46,306 nucleotides of DNA, taken from positions 1 to 46,306 of the forward strand of contig JAKAPE010000003.1 in assembly GCA_021811945.1 (NCBI GenBank). The letters are read 5' to 3'. Position numbers and translations under genes: made by a program. The notes under the pieces were generated by a model, which made no database searches, had not been told where the DNA came from, and worked only from the letters and a program-made list of their open reading frames with translations. This DNA is from Pseudomonadota bacterium (GTDB taxonomy: Bacteria > Pseudomonadota > Alphaproteobacteria > Rhizobiales > Xanthobacteraceae). Of this stretch, positions 12,655 to 14,049 are shown one piece after another (the first letter of the stretch is position 1; each line of letters begins with the position of its first letter).

Positions 12655-14049
12655 TCAACTTCCGGTTTTGATCCGCATCCACAGTCGGTTGATCAGCCGG
12701 TGCGTTCTCAAGTCGTGGGCCACAATGGTGTAGAGCTTGGCCATGGTGGCGGCGTCGGGATAGATCGTGGGGTCGTCGAGTATTGCTTTGTCGATGAATT
12801 TCCGGCTCGGCAGATTGCCGTTGGCGTAGGAAATGAAATTGGTGTTCTTTGCCGCCACTTCAGGCTTGAGTAGATAATTGATCAACGCGTGGGCTTCGGC
12901 AACATGGGCGCGTCCTTGGGAATGGCGAGATCGTCGAACCACAATTGCGCGCCTTCCTTGGGGATTGCGTAGCCGATCTCGATGCCTCCCTTGGCCTGGG
13001 CCGCGCGTTTCTGTGCCTGCTTAATGTCGCCCGAGAAGCCCACGACGAAGCAGATTTCGCCGCCGGCGAGCGCATTGAGATATTCCGAGGAGTCGAATTT
13101 GCGCACATACGGCCTGATCCTGCCGACGAGTTCGGCCGCCCTTTCCAGATCGCCCGGATCGCTCGAATTCGGATCGAGATGAAGGAAGCGCAGCGCCGCC
13201 GGCATGATGTCGTCGGAGGAATCGAGGAGGTAAATGCCGCAGTCCCGAAAACGCGCGATCTTTGCCGAATCGAACATGTCGGACCAGGAATTTATGGAAG
13301 AGTGGCCGAGAACCGCCAGCGCCGCTTTCATATTGTAGCCGATTCCGGTCGTACCCCACATGTAGTCGACGGCGTACTGGTTGCCGGGATCGTAGATGGC
13401 GAGCCGGCGCTCGATCTGCGGCCACGCATTGACTAGGTTCGGCAGCTTCGATTTGTCGAGCTTCTGAAAAATGCCGGCCCTGATCTGGCGGGCGAGAAAA
13501 TAGGCGGTCGGCACCACGACATCGAAGCCGGAGCCGCCGACGAGGAGTTTTGCTTCCAGCGTGTCGTTGGAGCCGAAGGTATCGTAGCGGACCGTTATTC
13601 CCGTTTGCTTGGTGAAATCCTCGAGCACGCTCGGATCGATGTAATCGGACCAGTTATCCTAAATCCGGCAGTTGGAGGACCTTATTGCGCGGAAGCCTTT
13701 GACTTTGTAAGTAAATAAGCCACCTTAGAGGTCTCCAAATTGGAACCGCTCCGCACTTGTTCGATTTTCCTAATTTGCCTGAAATTCCAATAGGTTTGCG
13801 AGCACTTTTAGGGCCGCAACTCACGGATTTAGGGTTATAGAAATTGACGACCTGTTCTTTCTGCGTTGCCGCGGCCGAGACTGCGGCGGTGAGAAAAGCG
13901 GCGATCATGACGATGACCGCGAGGCCGCAGCGATGGATGCGCGCCGCTTGCCCGCGCGCACGCGCGCAAGCGCCCAAATCCGCGCTCGTGCGGCGGCGGT
14001 GCGCGGAACAAGGATACCGTGCAGAGACGAGCGGTGCGCCGCAACCCAT
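12655..14049 (-). pseudogene. Polyamine ABC transporter substrate-binding protein (PotF-like), disrupted twice
   Basis: Read on the minus strand, a hydrophobic export signal (MIAAFLTAAVSAAATQKEQ, about 13850-13910) leads to VVNFYN. The mature protein resumes after an insertion with NWSDYIDPSVLEDFTKQTGI and continues through WGTTGIGYN, AGGEICFVVGFSGDIKQA and FDDLAIPKDAP. PotF-like proteins bind putrescine or spermidine in the periplasm. Two lesions destroy the gene. A 176-bp inverted-repeat element sits between VVNFY and NWSDY. A one-base deletion near 12906, where CCC-CAT became CCC-AT, shifts the frame. The rest (HVAEAHALINYLLKPEVAAKN to LWMRIKTGS) is intact in the other frame and ends at 12655. 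The true start is uncertain and could lie anywhere between 13908 and 14049. No permease or ATPase partner genes are nearby, fitting an orphan, dying gene. Confidence 0.9.
13658..13833. mobile_element. 176-bp miniature inverted-repeat element (MITE-like) with 5-bp target duplication
   Basis: The left end CCTAAATCCGGCAGTTG (13658-13674) and the inverted right end CCTAAATCCGTGAGTTG (13817-13833) match at 15 of 17 positions. GTTAT flanks both sides, at 13653-13657 and 13834-13838, as a target duplication. Excising the element with one GTTAT restores the PotF-like codons for NFYNWSDY exactly. The interior is AT-richer than its surroundings and holds no transposase gene, so it would need an enzyme encoded elsewhere. 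The parent insertion sequence family is not clear; a 5-bp duplication is compatible with several families. Confidence 0.88.

Follow-up and report, generated by a model that had tools for sequence, protein, structure and literature searches.

The 176-bp element at positions 13658–13833 of the window (the whole stretch of 46,306 nucleotides analyzed here) is, in our firm view, a MITE, a non-autonomous DNA transposon whose spread through its own genome is recent. It is of an ordinary kind, and represents a new family; what lies above the routine is its strict NTNAN target, its homology to a family of about equal length from another genus, and the fact that no mobilizer was found. The element combines a length below 500 bp with terminal inverted repeats, a target duplication, many dispersed copies, and the lack of a transposase gene. 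All of these belong to the general picture of prokaryotic MITEs drawn in PMC10969869, where copy numbers are in the tens. An alphaproteobacterial draft genome is thereby shown to harbor a recently amplified MITE that follows a sharp target rule and has a divergent sister family in another genus, and it becomes testable which transposase drives it and whether its interior is under constraint. The element also accounts for the damage to a potF-like gene and for many contig breaks in its own genome.

Structure of the element and the interrupted potF-like gene

The element, read on the plus strand, carries two substitutions relative to the consensus copy of the genome, and is bounded by a left inverted end (13658–13674, plus strand, CCTAAATCCGGCAGTTG) and a right inverted end (13817–13833, CCTAAATCCGTGAGTTG in the minus-strand reading). 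Set against the inverted right end, 15 of the first 17 bases match, with the mismatches at positions 11–12, and exact copies of GTTAT stand on both sides (13653–13657 and 13834–13838), as had been claimed in the sequence-only reading of this DNA. Briefly, the ends are inverted over 17–18 bp and consist of CCTAAATCCG followed by GC or TG and then AGTTG. The interior core (13740–13769, plus strand; element positions 83–112) contains many columns that are invariant between this copy and the 14 relatives in a genome of another genus (G039) described below. With 176 bp, the element is too short for a transposase-sized ORF, in agreement with the earlier statement that it holds no transposase gene. 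The whole window was also screened for stretches of 100–400 bp whose inverted ends match at 15 or more of 17 bases and which lie between exact 5-bp repeats; 13658–13833 was the sole element to pass, and one match in total was obtained across 60 dinucleotide-shuffled control windows, which were up to 2% shorter than the real one.

The insertion separates two pieces of a minus-strand gene for a potF-like polyamine-binding protein, namely a 5′ piece (13839–13908, with a putative start codon at 13906–13908) and a main 3′ piece (12882–13652) whose frame stops at 12882. The statement that removal of the element restores the reading frame was confirmed: the flanks minus one GTTAT give ...VVNFYN-WSDYIDPSVLEDF... 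in one frame, and the joined minus-strand pieces read ...NFYNWSDYIDPSVLEDF... across the former insertion site. The joined protein matches the Pfam family SBP_bac_8 (E 1.7e-22), and aligns without gaps over the junction with the solved polyamine transport protein 3ttl (E 8e-92). Support for an empty site at this locus comes from the comparison with homologous proteins. Further down, the gene carries another lesion: its reading frame shifts near 12882–12945, where the minus-strand ORFs 12882–13628 and 12655–12942 overlap; the latter (12655–12942, minus strand) holds the C-terminal part in a different frame, recognized by eye as a PotF C-terminus and giving no match in a Pfam search on its own. 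This frame change is either a second real damage to the potF-like gene or a sequencing error, and as the sequence stands, excision of the element would not by itself make the gene intact.

Copies in the genome and their target sites

The sequence-only reading had named the absence of other copies, together with the same insertion in all relatives, as pointing to an old, non-mobile event. An absence of other copies was not obtained: the own genome, a draft of 399 contigs (4.55 Mb, 97% complete) with collapsed repeats, contains 33 places matching the element, comprising 11 two-sided copies, 21 copies reaching a contig end (one of which stops 1 base short of it), and a 72-bp piece truncated within a contig. 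We infer at least about 22 insertions from these places, this minimum being made up of the 11 two-sided copies, nine insertions from 15 contig-end copies paired by equal duplications, the truncated copy, and at least one nested copy. Over the covered part, 19 of the 33 copies are identical to the consensus, and 13 differ from it by one or two bases, whereas copy L017 has five differences, clustered close to the end of its contig. The own copies show no indels apart from a gap in contig C5, where an apparent variant of 81% identity (L023/L160, 354–513) was rejected as an assembly artefact, since it reads AGATCGGA-N10-TTCCGATCT, a scaffold gap flanked by adapter-like sequence.

Exact 5-bp duplications flank 10 of the 11 two-sided copies; the eleventh (L009 in contig C1) has no matching duplication, and its match begins at base 2 only. 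In the orientation of the element, the exact duplications are GTTAT, TTTAT, ATTAT, ATAAT (twice), ATAAA (twice), TTGAC, ATGAA, and TTGAA. All 10 of them, together with all 17 one-flank entries, fit NTNAN (27/27) in a tally made without L009 (whose right flank ATAAA fits and whose left flank does not) and with six nested contig ends entered once, the 17 one-flank entries being such that they can hold both sides of one insertion. As a background, NTNAN accounts for 3.0% of the 5-mers of the window, and for 15.5% of those with at least four A/T. Since the outer bases are also duplicated, the duplication is one of 5 bp and not of the central three. Altogether, on the basis of the lack of a transposase-sized ORF, the near-identical copies in different flanks, and the exact duplications at 10 of 11 two-sided copies, the best reading is that of a MITE-like element moved in trans.

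At the joined sites, ORFs of at least 80 codons cross 7 of the 10 two-flank loci examined, and the crossing ORFs other than potF appeared on visual inspection to be out of frame or to start past the site. To the eye, the other insertions therefore look intergenic, with the potF interruption being the exception; for example, one copy lies upstream of a clpS-like gene, and another directly after a 3-hydroxyacyl-CoA dehydrogenase-like gene. A comparable case is described in PMC10969869 for the Chunjie element of Geobacter uraniireducens, of which Chunjie-1 disrupts an uptake operon and 37 other copies are called intergenic, with a size range given as 178 to 235 bp. Chunjie-1 resembles the potF copy in that uptake genes have been hit, whereas Chunjie varies in length and the present copies, the C5 gap aside, show no indel. 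From prokaryotic MITEs including Chunjie, the element described here differs in the end sequence, the host group, and the TNA-centred 5-bp target.

Relatives in other genomes

A blastn search with the element against 101 genomes, the own one included, found nothing in 19 congeners and, outside the own genome, just one 22-bp end match in G039, which belongs to another genus and, to judge from the agreement of match positions and flanks, is apparently Centralia_MAG_73 (Hyphomicrobiales). A sequence model of both families, searched against 391 genomes of the family with seven candidates scored per genome and strict filters, under which weak relatives may be missed, recovered the own genome and G039, plus one weak match. 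The latter (G035; E 0.004 over 68 positions) is without ends, and was taken as chance.

The family in G039 is divergent and has the same ends. Its 14 two-ended relatives (those with two recognizable ends among the loci fetched) are 161–184 bp long; six of them are exactly 176 bp, and nine fall within 175–177 bp. Exact 5-bp duplications, all fitting NTNAN, are present in eight of the 14, and in the remaining six, which lack them, 11 of the 12 flanks fit. With the 18-bp ends removed, the own interior agrees with the A1 consensus, in which 13 of the 15 rows are of the G039 type and the own element itself is one row, at 79 of 144 columns (z 5.5, reached by 0/500 shuffles), and with a third type (L143) at 72 of 141 (z 4.7, 0/500), whereas the reverse-complement controls gave z values of 0.5 and 0.9, reached by 166/500 and 105/500 shuffles, respectively. 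The homology of the interior to similar-length elements in another genus indicates that the own MITE belongs to an older MITE lineage, and the greater diversity of the G039 copies indicates that the burst in the own genome is the younger one. Two further loci were noted in G039: a 38-bp form (L142, 499–536, in contig C76 of that genome) consists of hardly more than both inverted ends, and L141 shows a single end, decayed in appearance and with no partner, where no transposase-like ORF was recognized by eye.

Single-end matches were encountered in Shewanella sp. OPT22 (one of 17 stretches, the other 16 being from Centralia_MAG_73), in two viral contigs, and in G308; among 397 genomes of the order, only G308 and the own genome contain the pattern. 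Within the stretches fetched, none of these ends is accompanied by a partner at a tolerance of 4 mismatches in 18, and they were taken as chance, since by arithmetic some 7 occurrences of an 18-mer are expected in 257 Gb when both strands are counted. The element has no match in Rfam at E ≤ 1 or in 72,556 plasmid records, its exact two-ended pattern has none in viral contigs, and no description of this MITE family is found among the literature matches listed; within the scope of these searches, the element can be called new, as it had been in the sequence-only reading.

Candidate mobilizers and alternative explanations

Because of the AT-rich 5-bp duplications, the IS1380 family is a natural first guess for the mobilizer. 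Duplications of 5 bp are common to the MITE, IS1247 of this family (listed with DR 5 in PMC3281130), and ISEcp1 units, for which AT-rich 5-bp duplications are given in PMC9325909. An intact IS1380-family transposase is encoded in contig C56 of the own genome, in addition to a fragment over the cut-off in C183 and a sub-threshold match in C231; elsewhere, G039 has a partial match over the cut-off, and the 19 congeners have none. The ends of IS1380-family elements begin with CC. In six plasmid regions with related transposases (L179–L184), delimited by inverted-repeat search and by eye, the ends read CTAGCCCGCATTT(C/T)TCACA in two Bradyrhizobium regions, CTAGCCCG(AATC/CTTT)TCTCA in two R. leguminosarum regions, and another sequence in two Acetobacter regions, and the resident element in C56 shows the same GTGTGAGAAATGCGGG end. 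The resident element and its rhizobial plasmid relatives end in CCCG...TCTCA beside CTAG or TTAG, whereas the MITE has ends that begin with CCTAAATCCG; the resident element was rejected as the mobilizer, since neither its ends nor those of the six related plasmid elements are CCTAAATCCG. As to the IS1634 family, 5–6 bp duplications and ends with C as the first base, a consensus of C-----YT, and poor conservation are stated in PMC2266710 and PMC3281130. The MITE fits the 5-bp duplication and the first C, but has C at position 8 in place of the T of the consensus.

The sequence-only reading had also proposed a search for a full insertion sequence with the same ends. No such element was recognized around a transposase in the own genome and G039, using the end pattern with up to two mismatches and with the weak single ends examined in part; at two mismatches, the own genome has matches in C122, C209, C258 (at 9876), and C273, where a reversed control pattern gave seven, and G039 has matches in C193, C221, and C67. 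In the own genome, contigs C33 and C50 both run out in a repeat that has the exact 18-bp end CCTAAATCCGTGAGTTGG and continues with an identical 109 bp unlike the MITE, at the targets ATTAC and ATGAT, respectively. Both contigs stop 127 bp into this repeat, a pattern typical of repeats that collapse in short-read assembly, and its body probably lies in a contig outside this genome set. The repeat may be the autonomous partner of the MITE. It gave no match to plasmids by blastn and tblastn, its two short possible peptides gave none in Pfam and one meaningless match to AmpD in NCBIfam (E 0.19), and an exact 29-base pattern of it is absent from the viral contigs. Just before the repeat in C33 (L062, 1300–1500), short repeats of the AATTACGG type are seen, whose neighbor is presumably the start of an IS110-type transposase. 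A single exact end also occurs in C30 (L150, 4542–4558), with the target ATCAG and with tandem 25-bp repeats about 0.4 kb off; it has no partner at up to three mismatches, one weak match at four, and no match to the MITE model.

Presumably, the MITE ends are bound by a DDE-type transposase acting in trans, which inserts them at NTNAN sites cut with a 5-bp stagger; this enzyme would most likely come from the incompletely seen repeat with the 18-bp end at C33 and C50. The same repeat raises the question of whether the MITE is its recent internal-deletion product, formed by the usual route from insertion sequence to MITE. The common 18-bp end and the fitting targets of C33 and C50 would agree with this origin, as would the account in PMC10969869 of insertion sequences as the main source of prokaryotic MITEs. 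However, within the own genome the 129-bp end of C33 matches C33 and C50 only and none of the MITE copies, in a comparison for which 127 bp of one repeat end are visible, and any deletion would have to be old because the MITE interior is homologous to similar-length elements in another genus. We consider the recent deletion unlikely: with this interior homology to divergent elements in view, it is improbable that the MITE arose from the C33/C50 repeat by a fresh deletion. A more far-reaching proposal, which we put forward with considerable doubt, is that the mobilizer belongs to an undescribed group of insertion sequences with a strict and symmetric 5-bp NTNAN target, and that the length of about 176 bp and the central core of the MITE lineage have been kept across genera because the interior is needed (e.g., for synapsis, or for binding of the transposase or a host factor), and not merely because the copies are young.

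Other explanations concern the nature of the element and the way in which it spread. A dispersed extragenic palindrome or RNA element, in place of a transposon, might be suspected from its folding, which is better than that of shuffled sequences both as single-stranded DNA (z –3.5, with 0/200 as good) and as RNA (z –2.5, 2/200); these values cover the paired ends and the interior together in both folds. The consensus fold provides little support for a conserved RNA structure (covariation term, +0.9; double changes in 5 of 43 pairs), Rfam offers no match, and the exact 5-bp target duplications and the interruption of a gene with a restorable frame contradict such a reading, which we regard as highly improbable. 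Equally improbable is a TIME, a miniature element derived from the Tn3 family. According to PMC4133298, TIMEs resemble the MITE in their duplications of 5 or 6 bp in AT-rich regions and in a conserved size that is kept while the core diverges, but their inverted repeats are of the 38-bp Tn3 type and they mostly occur as single copies, whereas the present ends are unrelated, begin with CCTAAATCCG, and pair over about 17–18 bp, and the copy number is high.

Retaining the MITE moved in trans as the preferred reading, one may still ask whether its spread was partly passive, with some copies lying inside another mobile repeat. Six contig ends (C62, C76, C105, C127, C210, and C258) have in common the right part of the MITE and the identical next 45 bp, target included, up to CTAG, after which they diverge. 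In these contigs, a repeat that ends in ...AAATCGATGAACTAG and lies within the first or last ~130 bp contains a copy of the MITE at 45 bp from its end (L027, L028, L029, L152, L153, and L154, in C105, C76, C210, C62, C127, and C258, respectively). Here, the MITE is located near the end of a separate CTAG-associated repeat and seems to be carried along with it. Nevertheless, such sharing is limited to the six contig ends, while 10 of the 11 two-sided copies have a duplication of their own, and a passive contribution to the spread appears rather unlikely on balance. Past the CTAG junction of L027, there is a palindromic stretch of ~78 bp (CTAGTGTGG...CCACACTAG), which is possibly another small mobile element.
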